A stretch of DNA of 64,000 nucleotides, taken from NCBI RefSeq assembly GCF_003449035.1, contig NZ_QRGB01000001.1, forward strand, positions 2,666,001 to 2,730,000, written 5' to 3'. Shown piece by piece: positions 54,198 through 64,000 of this stretch. This DNA comes from Pedobacter indicus. Its GTDB lineage: Bacteria > Bacteroidota > Bacteroidia > Sphingobacteriales > Sphingobacteriaceae. The notes beneath the pieces were generated by a model that had not been told where the DNA came from, searched no databases, and saw only the letters and a list, made by a program, of their open reading frames with translations. Position numbers and translations under genes: made by a program. Every line of letters begins with the position of its first letter. The first letter of the stretch is position 1.

Positions 54198-55673
54198 TTA
54201 ATACCCATTGTTCTGAGTCATAACGCCAGCGTTTGACTGTTCGAGTTCCCGTTGTGGGATCGGATACAGATTATAATGTGATTTTGGATTGAGTTTCACC
54301 TTCGTAGCTTGCTTAGATACGGGATTGTAGAAGGTCTCCACTTCCGCTAATTCAGCCTCCATCCTTCCGGTCCTTACCAGATCGTACCAACGTTCGTCTT
54401 CAAAGGCCAACTCCAATCTTCTTTCTAAGAGCAGTTTATCTTCAAAGGCTTGTGGGGTAGCGATATCTGCCGCGGTATAATTATGGCTAGATCCCTTAAA
54501 TGCACGTTGCCTTATCCGATTTAGTTCTGCTAAAGCTTGAGACTGCTGACCCAGGTTATAAAGCACTTCGGCTTTTAGGAGCACAAGATCGGCGTAGCGC
54601 AATACGGGCAAATCGAGTCCTGACGCGCTTGGGGTGTGCGTAATAGCATATTTATTAACATAAGGATACCATTCTTCAGGCGCATCGGCTGGCCCACCGG
54701 GCGACTTCCAATATTCTTTGATGCTCACATCTTTCCGTGTATCACCTTCTTCAAAATGCTTGTGCAGATCCCAAGAAGGGAACGCAGCTTCTAATCCGCG
54801 AGGCGACACCCCACCGACACCAAAATAGGGTAAGAAATACGTGGATAGGCTGTGACCATTGGTACCGTCGGTATATTTTATGGCGAAAATAATCTCGTTA
54901 TTATCTTCATTTTCAATTCTCCATAAGGATGCAAAGTCATCTTGCAGCTGGAAACCATAGGTATCTAGCATATCAAGATACTTTTTGGCATTTGACCAGT
55001 CTTCCTGATAAACATGAACCTTCGCTAGCAAAGCAATTGCCGCCTCTTTACTTGCACGACCGGTGGCTATACTCCCCCGTTCCGGCAAACCATTAATCGC
55101 ATCCGTTAGATCCTGGATAATGTGTGTATAAATCTCAGAAGCAGGCGAGCGGGGAATGGTTCTTGACTCCTCAATAGTTAGAAGCTTGTCTACAAGAGGG
55201 ACATCGCCAAATAAGCGTACGAGCTCAAAATAAAGCAGAGCACGCATAAACTTAGCCTCACCCTCTAGCTGCCCCCTCTGCCCTTCTGCATAATCTGTCG
55301 GGTTATCGAGGTTAACAATCACCGCGTTGGCGCGGAAAATACCATTGTATGTCTGTTGCCAAAAACTTGCAAACAGTGGGTTTTCAGCCGTGATAGCCAG
55401 ATTATTTATTTCATCAGTACCTCCTAAGGTAGAATAGCCTGTCCGGTGAAGGTTATCTGTTGGTAATTCCAGGATTGCCCAATCGTTAGGTTTCCTTGCT
55501 TGATAGCGTATATAAATTCCGAGTACCGCACTATTCAAGTCGGCAGCTGTGTTATAAAAGTCAGCCTCCGTTAATGATGACGGTGGAGTAAGGTCAATAA
55601 CTTGCTTTTGACAGGAAGTCATGCCAATCGCAATTGAAAATACCCCTAATATTAAACTATATTTTACTTTCAT
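54198..55673 (-). CDS. SusD/RagB-family nutrient-binding lipoprotein
   Basis: The 491-residue product has a lipoprotein signal (IGMTSCQKQ, Cys21) and SusD hallmarks: ELPTDNLHRTGYST near residue 69, GEAKFMRALLYFELVRLFGDVPLVDKLLT (TPR-like helices; outlined) and the C-terminal ERRLELAFEDERWYDLVRTGRMEA, then LYPIPQRELEQSN. SusD forms the lid on the SusC channel and binds the substrate at the surface. The gene follows susC by 12 bp. No glycosidases, sulfatases or peptidases adjoin it, so the substrate cannot be inferred. Confidence 0.95.
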   Translation of the reverse strand: MKVKYSLILGVFSIAIGMTSCQKQVIDLTPPSSLTEADFYNTAADLNSAVLGIYIRYQARKPNDWAILELPTDNLHRTGYSTLGGTDEINNLAITAENPLFASFWQQTYNGIFRANAVIVNLDNPTDYAEGQRGQLEGEAKFMRALLYFELVRLFGDVPLVDKLLTIEESRTIPRSPASEIYTHIIQDLTDAINGLPERGSIATGRASKEAAIALLAKVHVYQEDWSNAKKYLDMLDTYGFQLQDDFASLWRIENEDNNEIIFAIKYTDGTNGHSLSTYFLPYFGVGGVSPRGLEAAFPSWDLHKHFEEGDTRKDVSIKEYWKSPGGPADAPEEWYPYVNKYAITHTPSASGLDLPVLRYADLVLLKAEVLYNLGQQSQALAELNRIRQRAFKGSSHNYTAADIATPQAFEDKLLLERRLELAFEDERWYDLVRTGRMEAELAEVETFYNPVSKQATKVKLNPKSHYNLYPIPQRELEQSNAGVMTQNNGY

Positions 55674-55685
55674 GATTCCGTGTGT

Positions 55686-58600
55686 TTAAAAGTTTACATT
55701 CAGTCCAAGAACGAATGTTCTATTAATTGGCTCCGCACCGTTATTAAATCCGGGCATACTATTTATACCGTTGTTTTCGCTTGCTGTAAACCCTTCTGGA
55801 TTATAACCATGGAAACTATCCTTGGTTAAGGTCAGCAAATTATTTACTGATAAATAGACCCGCAGATTTGACAACTTCATTTTATCTATCAGCTTATTGG
55901 GGAACGTATACCCTAAGTTGATATTCCGAATCGATAAAAACGATGCGTCTTCCAGGTAATAATCGCTATTGGATACATAAGCTAATGCACTTAGAGCAGT
56001 TGCTGGTGTCATACCATCACCTGGTTCCTCTTCAGACCACCATTGATTTTCTACCAAAGAGCGGCGCATTGCACTCACGGTAGCCCCTTCATAATAAAGA
56101 TTTTCTAGGTTGTACATCTTTGCTCCCAGAGATGCCTGCAAAACCACGCTCAGGTCAAGACCCTTCCATGAAAAATCATTCGTCATACCCAAATATGCCT
56201 TCGGCTGGTAGTTACCTAAAATGACCCGATCATTTGGTGTAATTTCACCATCACCGTCCACGTCCTCATACTTCGAGTGTCCTGGACGAGATCCAGCTAT
56301 TACCGCAGAATTTGCCACGTCTTCCTCATTCTGAAGAACGCCGATTTGACGGTATCCGTAATAGGAGAACATCGGTTCACCAACCCTCAACAGCCAGCTC
56401 ATACCGCGGGTATGCGTATTGATAACTTCATCAACACCGCCGAGGTCAACAACTTCATTTCGATTTTTCGAGAAGTTAAATGCAGTTTGCCATTTAAATT
56501 CCCCTACGGTATTTCTGGTGTTTAACTCGATTTCAAAACCCTTATTACTTATATCACCGATATTCACCAGAGCTGTTGTAAATCCTGATATACCCGGGGT
56601 TGTAACATTGTACAGAAGATCATTGGTTCTCTTATCATAATAGTCGAATATAAGATTGACTCTGCCGTCAAACAGACCTAAGTCCAACCCGATATCATAA
56701 CTTGTAGTTGTTTCCCATTTCAGATCTCCATTACCAAGCGAACTTTGTGCTTGCCCTACCGTCAATTCCCCTCCGGGCGAATAGTATCCGTCGCCAATCA
56801 ACCCCAAATACTGGAAGTCACCAATATTAAAGTTACCTACTTCACCATAACTCGCTCTCAACTTTAATTCAGAAATAACGGGATTATCGATCAGAAATTC
56901 TTCTTGAGACATCCTCCAAGCCACCGATGCCGATGGGAAAAAGCCCCAGCGACTATTCGGTCCAAAACGAGAACTGCCGTCCGTTCTAAAGGAAGCAGAT
57001 AGCAAGTATTTATCTTGATAGCTATAGTTAATACGACTGAAATAAGACGCCAAGCCCCAATGAGATTCACTAGATCGGGTAGCAGCGGGATTAATAATCG
57101 CATTATTTAATGTATGAATAATTTCATTATTGAAACTTCCCGGCATAGCGGCCATTGTCAAACTACGCGACATTGACTTTTGAAATGATGCACCTAAAAT
57201 AGCATTGATGTAATGATCTTCATTAATCGTCTTATCATAGTTTAGTACGTTTTCGTTAACAATAACATAACCACGATCATCTGACGCAGAACCCGAGTTC
57301 ATGCCATTGGAAGTAGCCAAGCCAGACTGAAAATTATCACCGCTTGTATAGCCGATATTAGCCCCCAAAGTAGAACGCAGACTTAACCCCTCTAATATGT
57401 TCACATTTACATACATCTCACCAATGCTGTTAAACGTAGTTGTGTAATAGTGTGTGCCATCTAGGGTAGCAAGTGGACTCGTTTGTGCCGATACCGAACT
57501 ACCCCAGTAATCTCTTGGTTTAGGATAGGTGCCGTCTGCATTTTGCTCTGGAGAGACAAATGGTGCGGTTTTCACAATCGCTTCCATTGATACAGGCGAT
57601 CTACGACGCTTAGCATAGGTCGGGCTTAAGTTAAAGCCGGTACTGATAAAATCGTTTACCTTAATATCAATATTCGCTCGCGCCGAATAGGTTTTATAAC
57701 CTGTATTGCGCAAGACCCCCTTCTCGTCCATCAGATTTCCAGACACATAGTATTTTACATTGTCGTTTCCACCGCCAACGGACAAACTATAGCTCTGAAT
57801 GGCAGCAGGATCTAATAATACATCTTCCCAATTCGTATGACTTTCTTTGATTACCGGATTTACCCGATAGCTGATAGGACGACGATCGTCACCCCATAGC
57901 GGAAGTGATGGATCACCACCCTCCCATACAAAATCACGGTTTATATAGCGTGCTATATAATCATGAAACTCTTCTCCATAAATCCAGTCGTCATGCATAA
58001 CCGCATTCGCAACACCTGCATAACCATTGAAATTCAAAGTAGGCTTGCCAGATTTTCCTCTTTTTGTCGTTACCATAATCACTCCCCCCGCTCCTCTGGA
58101 TCCATAGATTGCTGCCGAAGAGGCATCTTTCAATACTTCGATTGATTCGACATCGTTCATGTTGATATTACCAAGACTTCCTCCCGGGAAACCATCAATT
58201 ACAACCAACGGGTTGTTGCTTGCAGATATGGATCCCGCACCGCGGATGCGGATTGTTGGAGCCGTTCCTGGTGTATTTCTTGAATTGGTGATACTAACAC
58301 CCGCCAGTCGACCAACTAAAGCAGCTTCAGGTCTGCCAGCAGGCATCTGATCCAACTTCTCATTTTCGATTTTAGAAATCGCTGAGGTTAATGAACTTTT
58401 TCGCATCGTTCCATAACCAACAACAACAACCTCATCTAATTCGGATAACTCTTCTTCCAAACCGACATTAAGCACTGCTCCATTAACCCTAACACGTTGG
58501 GAAACATAACCAACATAGCTAAAAACTAAGGTGCTTGCTTTGGGGGCTGAAATACTGAATTGACCTTCGGCGTTTGTAGTGACGCTCTGACTACCTGTTT

Positions 58601-58754
58601 CCAAAGTCACACTCACACCTGCAAGCGGTTCTTGAGTGGCATTGTCTGTGACGATACCCTTGACTTCGACCTGATCCTGAGCGTAAGCCAAATGGCCAAG
58701 CAAGAAAAGTGACAAGAGGATAAACGACACAGTTTTAAATACACGTTTCTCCAT
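55686..58754 (-). CDS. SusC/RagA-family TonB-linked outer-membrane transporter
   Basis: The 1022-residue product has a signal peptide (about 1-26, ending in AYAQ), a carboxypeptidase-like beta-sandwich (VKGIVTDNATQEPLAGVSV, about 28-110), a plug (about 115-225: IDGFPGGSLGNINMNDVESIEVLKDASSAAIYGSRGAGGVIMVTTKRG, outlined) and a large barrel ending in NRTFVLGLNVNF. It imports an oligomer captured by SusD. A palindrome (58796-58807) lies in its upstream region. The divergent gene is a TetR regulator. Confidence 0.96.
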   Translation of the reverse strand: MEKRVFKTVSFILLSLFLLGHLAYAQDQVEVKGIVTDNATQEPLAGVSVTLETGSQSVTTNAEGQFSISAPKASTLVFSYVGYVSQRVRVNGAVLNVGLEEELSELDEVVVVGYGTMRKSSLTSAISKIENEKLDQMPAGRPEAALVGRLAGVSITNSRNTPGTAPTIRIRGAGSISASNNPLVVIDGFPGGSLGNINMNDVESIEVLKDASSAAIYGSRGAGGVIMVTTKRGKSGKPTLNFNGYAGVANAVMHDDWIYGEEFHDYIARYINRDFVWEGGDPSLPLWGDDRRPISYRVNPVIKESHTNWEDVLLDPAAIQSYSLSVGGGNDNVKYYVSGNLMDEKGVLRNTGYKTYSARANIDIKVNDFISTGFNLSPTYAKRRRSPVSMEAIVKTAPFVSPEQNADGTYPKPRDYWGSSVSAQTSPLATLDGTHYYTTTFNSIGEMYVNVNILEGLSLRSTLGANIGYTSGDNFQSGLATSNGMNSGSASDDRGYVIVNENVLNYDKTINEDHYINAILGASFQKSMSRSLTMAAMPGSFNNEIIHTLNNAIINPAATRSSESHWGLASYFSRINYSYQDKYLLSASFRTDGSSRFGPNSRWGFFPSASVAWRMSQEEFLIDNPVISELKLRASYGEVGNFNIGDFQYLGLIGDGYYSPGGELTVGQAQSSLGNGDLKWETTTSYDIGLDLGLFDGRVNLIFDYYDKRTNDLLYNVTTPGISGFTTALVNIGDISNKGFEIELNTRNTVGEFKWQTAFNFSKNRNEVVDLGGVDEVINTHTRGMSWLLRVGEPMFSYYGYRQIGVLQNEEDVANSAVIAGSRPGHSKYEDVDGDGEITPNDRVILGNYQPKAYLGMTNDFSWKGLDLSVVLQASLGAKMYNLENLYYEGATVSAMRRSLVENQWWSEEEPGDGMTPATALSALAYVSNSDYYLEDASFLSIRNINLGYTFPNKLIDKMKLSNLRVYLSVNNLLTLTKDSFHGYNPEGFTASENNGINSMPGFNNGAEPINRTFVLGLNVNF

Positions 58755-58807: not shown

Positions 58808-58981
58808 GAAATGCGCTATTAAAAAAGAAGAAATGAATATTCGCTCATTCTTCGGGATCATAACTTAGCATCATAATTAGTTCATTGTTTATTTAGTTTA
58901 TTGATTACTTCTAAGATACCATTATAACGCCTTTCTACATTATATTATTGTAACAAATTTATTTGAAAAAAAATATTGACA

Positions 58982-58998
58982 ACTTAACACTGTTAAGT
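58982..58998 (+). promoter_or_regulatory. TetR-type operator before the regulator gene
   Basis: ACTTAAC-ACT-GTTAAGT is a perfect 7-bp dyad, 31 bp before the ATG at 59029, so probably autoregulatory. Nearly the same core (TTAACACTGTTA) recurs in inverse orientation at 59684-59695. Confidence 0.72.
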
Positions 58999-59028
58999 AT
59001 ATTTATAAAAAATAAGCACCAGTTAGTC

Positions 59029-59667
59029 ATGGGAATCAAAGAACGGAAGGAACGACACAAGGAAAACTTGAAGCAAGAAATATTAAATGCGGCAAAAAAA
59101 TTATTTATGAAGCATGGTTATGAAGCAACTTCTATTCGAAAAATAGCTGCTGAAATTGAATTCAGTCCGACAACCATCTACCTTTATTATAAAGACAAAA
59201 ATGATATATTGTACGCTCTTCACCAAGAAGGTTTTAAAATGCTGGCTGACCGTTTCTTTGCTCTATCGACTATTGAAAACCCATTCGAAAGGCTCAAAGC
59301 AATGGGAAGAAGTTATTTAAAATTTGCAGTTGAACATCCTGATTTCTATGAGCTTATGTTTGTCATCAAAGAACCCCTTGAGTTCTTAAACAAGCATTGT
59401 GGAAGTGTCGACTGGGAAGAAGGGAAAGAATCTTTTGAGTTTCTATTAGACACGATTATTGATTGTCAAAAACACGGTTACTTCACCAGTCAGAATCCCG
59501 AGTTGTTTTCAATATTCGTATGGTCAACCGTACATGGTTTTTGCACCCTTTCGCTCCATGGACACTTTGAACACGTTGTCCAACATAATGACCTGAATCA
59601 TTCTGTCGACGAACTTTTTAAACGATCAATTAATAATTTCTTTGACTTACTAGATAGATTAAAATAA
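59029..59667 (+). CDS. TetR/AcrR-family repressor of the efflux operon
   Basis: The 212-residue product has an N-terminal helix-turn-helix (KQEILNAAKKLFMKHGYEATSIRKIAAEIEFSPTTIYLYYKDK, outlined, about 14-58) and a C-terminal ligand-binding domain (FAVEHPDFYELMFVIKEP). The start is the ATG at 59029; a longer ORF from a TTG at 58963 would run through the operator. It lies 30 bp before tolC on the same strand and likely represses tolC-adaptor-pump and itself. Confidence 0.92.
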   Translation: MGIKERKERHKENLKQEILNAAKKLFMKHGYEATSIRKIAAEIEFSPTTIYLYYKDKNDILYALHQEGFKMLADRFFALSTIENPFERLKAMGRSYLKFAVEHPDFYELMFVIKEPLEFLNKHCGSVDWEEGKESFEFLLDTIIDCQKHGYFTSQNPELFSIFVWSTVHGFCTLSLHGHFEHVVQHNDLNHSVDELFKRSINNFFDLLDRLK

Positions 59668-59682
59668 TTTTTTCACCTATAA

Positions 59683-59696
59683 ATAACAGTGTTAAT
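59683..59696 (+). promoter_or_regulatory. TetR-type operator before tolC
   Basis: ATAACAGTGTTAAT contains TAACA-G-TGTTA, the reverse complement of the core of the site at 58982. It ends one base before the tolC ATG, so bound repressor would mask the start region. Confidence 0.72.
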
Positions 59697-59697
59697 T

Positions 59698-61077
59698 ATG
59701 AGAACACTATTAACAACGCTGGTTTCATTCTCCATCATATTTTTCATATCAACATCGGGCAACTATCTTTTTGCACAAAATACGCTAGAGAAATATGTAG
59801 AAGAAGGCCTCGAAAACAATCTTGTACTCAGCCAGAAAAACGTTTCTTGGGAAAAGGCCATGATCGGCCTCCAGTCTGCGAAGAGCTTATATCTACCCGC
59901 GGTGGCTTTCCAAACAACCTATAGTACTGCAGATGGTGGTCGGAATATCCCGCTTCCTCTTGGTGATCTTTTAAACGGGGTTTATGCTACGCTCAATCAA
60001 TTAACCCAGACGCAAAGTTTTCCTCAATTAGAGAACGAGGAAATCAATTTCTTTCCTAAAAACTACTACGATGCCAAGATAAGAACCACCGTTCCTATTA
60101 TTAATTCCGACATTCACTATGCTGTTAAAGTAAACGAACAACAAATTGTACTGAAAGAATTTGAATTAGAGATTTACAAACGGGAGCTGATCAAAAATAT
60201 TAAGGCCGCCTATTATAACTACCTGTCGGCATTAAAAGCGGTAGAAATCTATGAGTCTACATTGGGTCTGGCCGAGGAAGGTAAACGCGTAAACGAAAAA
60301 CTGTATGAAAGTGGCAAAGGTTTACCAGTATATGTGATGCGATCTGAAAGTGAGATCGCACAGGCAAATGCTGAGCTATCTCAGGCTAAGCAACAAAGTG
60401 AAAATGCAAAGCTTTATTTTAATTCACTATTAAATAGAGCTTCAGATCTTCCCATAGATACAAGCTTTTACGCTGAAGAAGAACTTCTTCATGCTCAGCA
60501 ACTGCTACATAAAGAAATTGAAACCGATCGCAGGGAGGAATTAGCTGGATTAAAACAGGTACGATCAATCAATGAATCGCTTCTTGAAAAGGATGAAAGA
60601 TATTTTTTGCCCAAATTAAGCGGTTTTCTAGATTTGGGTTCACAGGCCGAAGGAATGAAGTTCAATGACCAAAGTCGTTATTATATGGTCGGGCTTCAAC
60701 TCGATATCCCCATCTTTTCAGGCCTACGAAATAAATATAAGATAAAGGAAGCAAAACTAGAGCTGAAAAACAGCCAACTGCAATTCGATGACGCAAAGAG
60801 ACAACTTGAATTAAGTGCCAATGTATCGAAGAACAAACTTAAATCTTCCTTTGAAACCTATTACGCGTCGCAGGAGCGACTGAAAGCTGCGGCCGCATAT
60901 CAGAGGCTCATCGATCGTGGCTTTAAAGCTGGTGTTAACTCATTTATTGAAAGCATCGATGCCAGAAACCAGCTAACCAGTGCTCAACTAGCTACACAAA
61001 TCAATTTGTACAACGTCCTGTCCGCCGCTGCGGAACTCGAACGGGAATTAAATAGTAACCAAGATATTAATCCATAG
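59698..61077 (+). CDS. TolC-family outer-membrane efflux channel
   Basis: The 459-residue product forms a trimeric channel through the outer membrane and periplasm. Signal peptide about 1-26 (ending in LFAQ). The TolC pattern of long coiled helices is clear: LEKYVEEGLENNLVLSQKNVSWEKA, repeated in LYESGKGLPVYVMRSESEIAQANAELSQAKQQ and again in the second half (LELSANVSKNKLKSSFETYYASQERLKAAAAYQ). The start is ATG at 59698; a GTG three codons upstream overlaps the operator. It is 2 bp from the adaptor gene. Confidence 0.9.
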   Translation: MRTLLTTLVSFSIIFFISTSGNYLFAQNTLEKYVEEGLENNLVLSQKNVSWEKAMIGLQSAKSLYLPAVAFQTTYSTADGGRNIPLPLGDLLNGVYATLNQLTQTQSFPQLENEEINFFPKNYYDAKIRTTVPIINSDIHYAVKVNEQQIVLKEFELEIYKRELIKNIKAAYYNYLSALKAVEIYESTLGLAEEGKRVNEKLYESGKGLPVYVMRSESEIAQANAELSQAKQQSENAKLYFNSLLNRASDLPIDTSFYAEEELLHAQQLLHKEIETDRREELAGLKQVRSINESLLEKDERYFLPKLSGFLDLGSQAEGMKFNDQSRYYMVGLQLDIPIFSGLRNKYKIKEAKLELKNSQLQFDDAKRQLELSANVSKNKLKSSFETYYASQERLKAAAAYQRLIDRGFKAGVNSFIESIDARNQLTSAQLATQINLYNVLSAAAELERELNSNQDINP

Positions 61078-61079
61078 TC

Positions 61080-62150
61080 ATGAAAGCTAATTATCAATTC
61101 CGAGTGATACTTTGCACTGTATCCGCGATTTTATTTTTAAGCGCCTGCAGTCAGAAGGAAAAACAAACCGACAAGAGTGATGAAACCACCATTCCGGTCA
61201 AACTGATGTCTCTTCGGCAAGGAGAAAATAGTTCAAAAATAACCGCTTCCGGCGTATTTACCACCGAAGAGGAAACGGTTCTTTCCTTTAAAAACGGAGG
61301 GATCATTCAAAGTATCGCGGTGAAAGAAGGTGACCGAGTTAGCAAAGGACAGGTTCTGGCGACGCTTAACATGGCAGAGATAGACGCCAGCGTTCAGCAA
61401 GCCAACCTTGGTCTGGAAAAAGCGAAGCGAGATTATGAGCGTGCCCTTAGATTGTTCGAGGATTCAGTAGCAACAAAAGAGCAACTTGAAAATGCAAAAA
61501 CTGCCCGGGATATTGCATTACAACAAAATCGTGCAGCTGAATTCAATCGACGTTACTCCCAAATCCGGGCAACCGACGATGGATATGTCCTAAAGCGATT
61601 CGCCACCGCGGGTCAAACCGTCGGACCGGGCACACCCATTCTGCAATTAAACGGGGCAGGAAACTCGAATTGGAAGCTAAGGGTTGGCGTAAGTGATCAA
61701 CAATGGGCTATTTTAAAAATAGGAGATCCGGCTATAATAGAAACAGATGTTAATAATGAAAGTATCCCTGCTTCCGTTATTAGAAAATCTGAAGGTATTG
61801 ACCCCTCTTCGGGAACTTTTACTGTCATTTTACAAGTAGAAGAATCCAATATTAACCATATTGCGACCGGTGTATTTGCTCGTGCAACCATCACGCCGAC
61901 CCAAAACTATTCTGGTTGGAACCTACCCTATTCAGCGGTACTGGATGGGAACAAAGGTGAGGGTTATGTATTTGTTACGAATGACAAAAAAACAGCGAAA
62001 AGGGTTCCCGTTCAAATCAATTCAATTAACAAAGATATGGTAACCGTGACCGATGGGCTTGGTCCATATCAATATGTGATCGTTTCAGGAAGTGCGTACC
62101 TAAAAGACGGATCTTCAATTAAAGAACAGGAAACTGTTGAACAAAATTAA
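61080..62150 (+). CDS. RND periplasmic adaptor lipoprotein
   Basis: The 356-residue product is a membrane-fusion protein joining the inner-membrane RND pump to TolC. Lipoprotein signal LFLSACSQ (Cys23). Lipoyl domain: GGIIQSIAVKEGDRVSKGQVLATLN near residue 73 and the paired DDGYVLKRFATAGQTVGPGTPILQL near 163; a coiled-coil hairpin between them (VQQANLGLEKAKRDYERAL). Beta-barrel and membrane-proximal domains follow. It is 2 bp from tolC and 11 bp from the pump gene. Confidence 0.92.
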   Translation: MKANYQFRVILCTVSAILFLSACSQKEKQTDKSDETTIPVKLMSLRQGENSSKITASGVFTTEEETVLSFKNGGIIQSIAVKEGDRVSKGQVLATLNMAEIDASVQQANLGLEKAKRDYERALRLFEDSVATKEQLENAKTARDIALQQNRAAEFNRRYSQIRATDDGYVLKRFATAGQTVGPGTPILQLNGAGNSNWKLRVGVSDQQWAILKIGDPAIIETDVNNESIPASVIRKSEGIDPSSGTFTVILQVEESNINHIATGVFARATITPTQNYSGWNLPYSAVLDGNKGEGYVFVTNDKKTAKRVPVQINSINKDMVTVTDGLGPYQYVIVSGSAYLKDGSSIKEQETVEQN

Positions 62151-62161
62151 AAATCGAAACA

Positions 62162-64000
62162 ATGAGTACCGCAAAATACGCGATAAAAAACAGTCAATTT
62201 ACATTGATTATGGTGATTATGGTATTGGCATTGGGTGTCAGTACAATTTTAAGCATGCCTCGTTCCGAAGATCCCGAAATGAAGACAACCGTATTTCCCA
62301 TTGCGATTGTCTACCCGGGAACAAGTCCGCAAGACATGGAAGAGCTTGTCGTAAACCCGATCGAAAGCAAATTATATGACCTCAGCGATATTAAACAAAT
62401 TAAAACCTCGATTTTTGACGGTGTCGCTGTGCTTTTCGTCGAATACACCTTTAAATCTGACGTAGATGATAAATACCAGGAGCTTGTACGCGAGATTGGC
62501 GCTTTGCGACCATCACTACCCGAAAACATCTACTCGATCGATATCGACAAAGTAGACCCGTCCAATGTAAACGTTATCCAGCTGGCATTGATTTCGGAAA
62601 ATGCGCCCAGGCCACTACTAAAGAAACAAGCTGATGACCTGAAGGAAAAACTAGAGTCCATCAAAGCGCTGAAAGATGTAAAAATCAGCGGTCTGTCTGA
62701 TCAGATTGTCCGGGTAGACGTACAGCCAGACGAGCTGGCCCGGATGAATATCCCTCTATCCCAGATAATGGATATGCTTCAAAGTGGTTCACAAAATATT
62801 CCCGGAGGGAGCATCTTAGCTGGCGGAAAGACATTTAGTATAAAAACAACGGGTAACTATCAAAGCATTGACGATATTAAAAACACCATTGTCAGCAGCA
62901 GCGAAGGCAAAAACATCCTTCTTAGGGACGTTGCTGATGTTTATCCAAGCTTTGCAGCTGAAACCCATCTTACCAGACTCAATGGATATCGTAGCCTCTT
63001 CATTAATGCAGCAATGAAAAAAGGCGAAAACATTACTGCCGTTCAGGAAGAATACACCTCTGTAATCAGTGAATTTAAGGACGAGTTACCTAAGAATATG
63101 GATCTGGTTACGAGTTTTGATCAGGCAGATAATGTTAACAAGCGGTTAAGTGGTCTGGGTATCGATTTTTTAATCGCAGTAACCCTTGTTATATTCACGC
63201 TCCTCCCCTTGGGAATCCGCGCGTCGGGAATCGTGATGATCGCTATCCCGCTATCGCTTTCAATTGGAGTAGTCTTACTACATCTGTCCGGTTATAGTTT
63301 AAACCAATTGAGTATTGTGGGCTTTGTTGTAGCATTAGGGCTTCTTGTGGACGACAGCATCGTTGTCGTTGAAAACATCGAGCGGTGGATGCGCGAAGGT
63401 TATTCCAAACTAGAAGCGGCAATCAAAGGTACCGAACAGATCACACTGGCAGTAATTGGTTGTACAGCTACCCTCGTTATCGCATTTATGCCACTTATGT
63501 TTATGCCCGAAGCAGCCGGTTCGTTTATCAGAAGCCTGCCCGTTGCTGTTATTTTTTCGGTATTGGCGTCTATGGTAATCGCATTGACAGTCGTTCCATT
63601 TTTAGCGACCAAAATGTTAAAGCCGCACGAACATCCTGAAGGGAATAAAGTTTTGCGAGTATTTCAAAAAGTTATCCATAGCACTTACGCCGTCGTGCTG
63701 GACAAAGCTTTGAAGAAACCGTGGACAGCAATACTTATTGCGGGGCTTATTTTTGTGGGTTCACTTTTTCTCATACCGGTCATCGGTTTCAGTTTATTTC
63801 CAGCATCAGAGAAGCCTCAGTTTTTAATTAATATTACGACGCCGGACCAATCGAATATTTATTATACAGACTCCATCACCCGGCAAATAGAAGCTGATCT
63901 GGCAGAGCTACCACAGGTAAAGTATTATTCATCAAACGTAGGTAAGGGCAATCCGCAGATTTATTACAATGTCGTTCAAGCTAATACTAAAAGTGATTTT
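62162..64000 (+). CDS. RND efflux pump permease (cut by window end)
   Basis: An open frame of 613 codons runs off the window. It starts with an RND N-terminus (TLIMVIMVLALGVSTILSMPRSEDPEM) and a porter domain (VYPGTSPQDMEELVVNPIE, DVDDKYQELVREIGALRPSLP). The proton-relay helix reads VALGLLVDDSIVVVEN, near residue 398, with the paired Asp residues of AcrB-type pumps. HAE-type drug or organic-solute export is likely; heavy-metal (CusA) features are absent in the visible part. The 3' end lies beyond 64000. Confidence 0.93.
   Translation, partial: MSTAKYAIKNSQFTLIMVIMVLALGVSTILSMPRSEDPEMKTTVFPIAIVYPGTSPQDMEELVVNPIESKLYDLSDIKQIKTSIFDGVAVLFVEYTFKSDVDDKYQELVREIGALRPSLPENIYSIDIDKVDPSNVNVIQLALISENAPRPLLKKQADDLKEKLESIKALKDVKISGLSDQIVRVDVQPDELARMNIPLSQIMDMLQSGSQNIPGGSILAGGKTFSIKTTGNYQSIDDIKNTIVSSSEGKNILLRDVADVYPSFAAETHLTRLNGYRSLFINAAMKKGENITAVQEEYTSVISEFKDELPKNMDLVTSFDQADNVNKRLSGLGIDFLIAVTLVIFTLLPLGIRASGIVMIAIPLSLSIGVVLLHLSGYSLNQLSIVGFVVALGLLVDDSIVVVENIERWMREGYSKLEAAIKGTEQITLAVIGCTATLVIAFMPLMFMPEAAGSFIRSLPVAVIFSVLASMVIALTVVPFLATKMLKPHEHPEGNKVLRVFQKVIHSTYAVVLDKALKKPWTAILIAGLIFVGSLFLIPVIGFSLFPASEKPQFLINITTPDQSNIYYTDSITRQIEADLAELPQVKYYSSNVGKGNPQIYYNVVQANTKSDF

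Follow-up and report, generated by a model that had tools for sequence, protein, structure and literature searches.

Paired palindromes flanking tetR as predicted operators of an autoregulated RND efflux repressor in Pedobacter indicus and related Bacteroidota

A TetR dimer acting on the palindrome TTAACA-N-TGTTAA very probably represses its own promoter in Pedobacter indicus and, through a second copy of the site, the adjacent efflux genes tolC-mfp-rnd. The locus was analysed within the window, i.e. the whole stretch of 64,000 nucleotides under study. Sequence comparison carries this reading: the paired conservation of the two sites, the position of the first in a promoter spacer and the tracking of the operator with the recognition helix of the regulator all support the proposal of an earlier note on this DNA that the TetR protein represses itself and the efflux pump through one site.

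The genes tetR, tolC, mfp and rnd are adjacent and lie on the same strand, and the start of tolC follows the tetR stop codon by 30 bp. The following features were assigned:

58976-58978, + strand: -33-like element of the tetR promoter, TTG; in orthologues the TTG/TTTG maximum lies 7-10 bases ahead of the operator
58982-58998, no strand: predicted operator site 1, ACTTAACACTGTTAAGT, a perfect 17-bp palindrome with one central base; 13-bp motif at 58984-58996
58998-59005, + strand: -7 element, TATATTTA, of the Bacteroidota TAnnTTTG type, 19 bp after the TTG
59029-59667, + strand: tetR, ATG at 59029, 212 aa, TetR_N and TetR_C_33 domains, recognition helix EFSPTTIYLYYKDK with T as residue 48
59683-59695, no strand: predicted operator site 2, ATAACAGTGTTAA, containing the perfect 11-bp palindrome TAACAGTGTTA at 59684-59694
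59698-61077, + strand: tolC-like outer-membrane efflux protein, 459 aa, OEP domain, TolC family
59701-59713, no strand: weak second predicted operator, AGAACACTATTAA, 9/12 matches, 18 bp downstream of site 2 and within tolC codons 2-6
61080-62150, + strand: RND periplasmic adaptor (membrane fusion protein), 356 aa, RND_mfp
62162-64000, + strand: 5' part of the RND permease, ACR_tran, continuing beyond the window end

By its domains the product of 59029-59667 is a TetR/AcrR family regulator, with an N-terminal TetR HTH domain (PF00440, E 3.6e-14, over the cut-off) and a TetR-like all-helical C-terminal domain (PF13305, TetR_C_33, E 4e-16), and it is the sole TetR_C_33 protein of the genome. Fold matches of its AlphaFold monomer, a model of moderate confidence (mean pLDDT 78.7), confirm only the TetR fold. 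The mechanical open reading frame of tetR extends back to a TTG at 58963 and spans site 1. Upstream of tetR a divergent pair of genes on the minus strand (54198-58754) was assigned by eye to a SusC-like (1022 aa) and a SusD-like (491 aa) protein. RND pumps under a local TetR repressor are well known, and judged from gene adjacency and the shared predicted operator the locus would qualify as that of an autoregulated repressor of this kind.

Both copies of the core that the earlier note had placed upstream of tetR and before tolC were found, at 58982-58998 and 59683-59695. At site 1 the core TTAACACTGTTA lies 33 bp ahead of the tetR ATG. At site 2 it lies 2 bp (TT) ahead of the tolC ATG (59698-59700), and not one base before it as the note had it. 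The opposite orientation ascribed to the second copy holds insofar as positions 59684-59695 read exactly TTAACACTGTTA on the minus strand; it reflects no more than whether C or G stands in the middle of a near-perfect palindrome. The first base of site 2 in the window is off the consensus (ATAACA).

Orthologues were gathered in two ways. The comparison covered 80 named loci, which span Sphingobacteriaceae, Chitinophagaceae, Saprospiraceae, Dyadobacter and Flavobacteriales together with more distant records. Of these 80 loci, 75 had an upstream match to TTAACAnTGTTAA of at least 11/12 and 73 a downstream one, and only 1 of 1,515 control windows taken from these loci matched as well. The gene order tetR-tolC-mfp-rnd was kept in 75/80, and the site pair and the gene pair were conserved jointly across families and classes, in orthologues with 47-66% protein identity. 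In six close relatives the palindrome flanked tetR on both sides in nearly all cases. Exact TTAACAnTGTTAA occurred at least once in 351 of 400 genomes of the order; in the first 60 genomes listed of these 400 it totalled 164 copies versus 32 in the reversed control. Two records deserve mention. CP034120.1 (L136), titled Glaciecola amylolytica, has a helix and operator layout as in Fluviicola (L135) and may be mislabelled or carry an acquired locus. A tetR relative at G565:C75:49-651 contains one in-frame TAA, possibly marking a pseudogene or a sequencing error.

The promoter consensus of Bacteroidota is TTTG-N19-TAnnTTTG. Elements of both kinds, -33 and -7, were found around site 1 at 19-bp spacing, and the predicted operator therefore fills the promoter spacer. 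The orthologues aligned on site 1 gave tTTt.aaa.a-TTAACAgTGTTAA-n-TAtaTTTGc, and in 50 of the 57 dereplicated loci TAnnTTTG started exactly one base past the 13-mer, with no more than two loci at any other offset. This placement is the one expected of a self-repressing operator.

Most orthologous loci have site 2 exactly 2 nt ahead of the tolC ATG. In one Pedobacter group the operator lies within the first codons of tolC, since an in-frame ATG just upstream precedes it; this ATG also ruled out the ATT/ATA start codons considered for that group. Loci of this Pedobacter type, with the operator embedded in the first tolC codons, are L089, L102, L103, L110, L112, L114, L120, L121, L123 and L125. 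The 18-bp distance between site 2 and the weak site in tolC recurred, +18 being the top offset of secondary matches in orthologues at both sites (z 4.7 at site 1 and z 3.6 at site 2). The signal at site 1 is partly due to the TTTG of the -7 element, and site 1 of the window is without a +18 copy (score 5/12).

For the relation between helix and operator, extra TetR loci were taken from the order and the phylum by a search that required the core AACA-N-TGTT and left the flanks free. The TTAACA flank went with the helix SPTTIYLY of the window's clade, TGAACA or TAAACA with SxGTVY, SPATIY or SPGTIY, and CTAACA with SVPVIYDH. TTAACA was found with the helix TAPIIYEY as well, often in three or four copies per locus; in this paralogous clade (L191-L200, e.g. 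L191, L195, L198) operator copies follow tetR and are often 18 or 72-90 bp apart. Among 141 dereplicated TetRs, operator base 2 was T in 88/88 proteins with T (66) or P (22) as residue 48 and always A or G in those with G (37) or A (14), while the two with S had C or G; T occurred in 0/53 of the A, G and S proteins taken together. Residue 48 was the best alignment column for base 2 (MI/H 1.00, the next 0.61). This rule was spotted by eye on part of the data and tested after about 60 loci had been added. Single half-sites gave a few exceptions, those of T48 proteins comprising 197 T, 12 A and 3 G. On a tree from which the helix columns had been left out, residue 48 and base 2 each changed 7 times, and these changes coincide because the two agree in every row. 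A sign test on the 4 independent pairs on well-supported branches gave p 0.125; all 7 would give about 0.016. Taken as sequence covariation, the agreement ties the site to the neighbouring TetR.

Published structures of TetR-family regulators place the equivalent residue against operator bases. Pro39 of TetR contacts thymines and Ala54 of AmtR contacts a thymine methyl of its operator (PMC7102968, PMC2723105), and Gly45 of MtrR is next to an operator position at which only purines occur and a thymine would clash (PMC8053128). The conserved Tyr of the helix served to set the register that equates residue 48 with Pro39, Ala54 and Gly45.

A distant TetR_C_33 clade with the helix SATSIYLY, which has Thr48 as well, carries TTAACAnTGTTAA in front of tetR. 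In the loci read, its neighbours encode an acyl-CoA ligase, a FadB-type dehydrogenase, a thiolase and an acyl-CoA dehydrogenase, and this TetR is apparently a repressor of fatty-acid degradation. L299, L300, L301 and L303 are loci of this clade in which the site stands before beta-oxidation genes and not pump genes. The same operator with beta-oxidation neighbours indicates that the operator goes with the helix and not with the pump. On balance, if with some reserve, we favour a phylum-wide TetR_C_33 family whose operator, xxAACA-N-TGTTxx, is modular and has its base 2 dictated by residue 48. In this view residue and base have switched in step about 7 times, each operator forms a tandem with a weaker +18 site, and the first tolC codons are under operator constraint.

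Could the sites be chance matches in AT-rich DNA? About one exact core is expected per 3.47 Mb, i.e. per genome, and one-mismatch core sites showed no excess genome-wide (63/56 versus 59/53 in the reversed control), both of which would suit such an origin; the probability of a second core within 700 bp is about 4e-4. The genome search proposed in the earlier note, for which many unrelated copies were to count against the idea, returned exact TTAACACTGTTA just twice in the 3.47-Mb genome, at sites 1 and 2. Exact TTAACANTGTTA occurred at four places; the C/G centre was confined to sites 1 and 2, and the other two copies sit within coding ORFs. A chance origin is already refuted by conservation, both positions being kept in orthologues at the protein identities given above, and we regard it as practically negligible. 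A genome-wide regulon in P. indicus was considered and rejected, as one-mismatch sites were at control level and the other exact 12-mers intra-ORF; with one-mismatch matches not enriched, there was no sign of a larger regulon. That another regulator binds the palindromes, the neighbouring TetR being a bystander, would fit the wide occurrence of TTAACAnTGTTAA in the order and some copies located away from any tetR (L202, L204-L208, L210). However, the motif variants follow the helix of the adjacent TetR without exception in the 141 proteins, and many of the other copies adjoin paralogous tetR genes, which makes a different regulator quite improbable.

The transcription of tolC itself allows a closer competitor, in which a single promoter at site 1 drives tetR-tolC-mfp-rnd and TetR at site 2 serves as a roadblock or looping partner. 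A canonical promoter surrounds site 1, no consistent -33/-7 pair was found before site 2 across the orthologues, and the 30-bp gap between tetR and tolC is short, all of which favour it. A clear tolC promoter was sought in the orthologues and found only weakly, with TAnnTTT at -21 to -19 in only 25/56 loci and often overlapping the tetR stop codon. Against a promoter at site 1 only, many loci have TAnnTTT, or a T-run followed by TTTG, 11-21 bp ahead of site 2, which resembles a weak promoter. We consider the single promoter a serious but somewhat less probable version of events; it is a variant of the preferred explanation and compatible with TetR binding at site 2. Since no consistent -33 element was found there, site 2 may act through an internal promoter, as a roadblock or by looping to site 1.

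In the preferred reading, repression by TetR through both sites, the dimer of the 59029-59667 product would bind the 13-bp TTAACA-N-TGTTAA, base 2 of each half-site being read by residue 48, with which the recognition helix begins. At site 1 it would fill the -33/-7 spacer of its own promoter and block RNA polymerase. At site 2 it would lie over the start of tolC and the bases immediately ahead of it, where it would either repress an internal promoter located at the tetR end or stop read-through into tolC-mfp-rnd. Pump and repressor would be induced together when a toxic compound, which is presumably a substrate of the pump as well, binds the C-terminal domain and frees TetR from the DNA. We infer binding, repression, inducer and the mode of action at site 2 from the sequence patterns described.

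The nearest precedent in the phylum is BmeR5 of Bacteroides fragilis. In a review citing Pumbwe 2007 (PMC4790292), it is presented as a TetR-family local repressor of bmeABC5 that binds the bmeR5-bmeC5 intergenic region and whose deletion raises pump expression. By this description only, it resembles the TetR of the window in having the outer-membrane gene next to the regulator, as the bmeR5-bmeC5 region implies; unlike in the window, a second operator in the promoter of bmeR5 itself is not described in the text consulted (PMC4790292). MtrR of Neisseria gonorrhoeae is likewise a TetR-family repressor of an RND pump, mtrCDE, and its Gly45-purine contact matches the G/A-to-purine part of the residue-48 rule (PMC8053128), whereas its operator and gene arrangement differ and the window clade combines Thr48 with thymine. 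TetR/tetO and AmtR share the helix register and a residue-48 equivalent that touches thymine (PMC7102968, PMC2723105), but differ in operators, effectors and regulated genes, with no RND operon. FadR-type regulators are related through the SATSIYLY clade, which shares TTAACAnTGTTAA before tetR, and Bacillus FadR is among the high-ranking fold matches of the window TetR; the SATSIYLY loci, however, mostly have just one operator and showed no pump genes.

A literature search with the operator string returned only papers on unrelated subjects, and the operator was not described in the open-access literature searched, which is weak evidence of absence. The residue-48 rule and the +18 site may be the new parts. 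For a large group of efflux repressors in Bacteroidota the analysis would provide a defined operator together with its exact promoter geometry; it would make the pump regulons of this phylum predictable from sequence, and offers a specificity rule of one residue and one base that is open to direct, simple binding assays.
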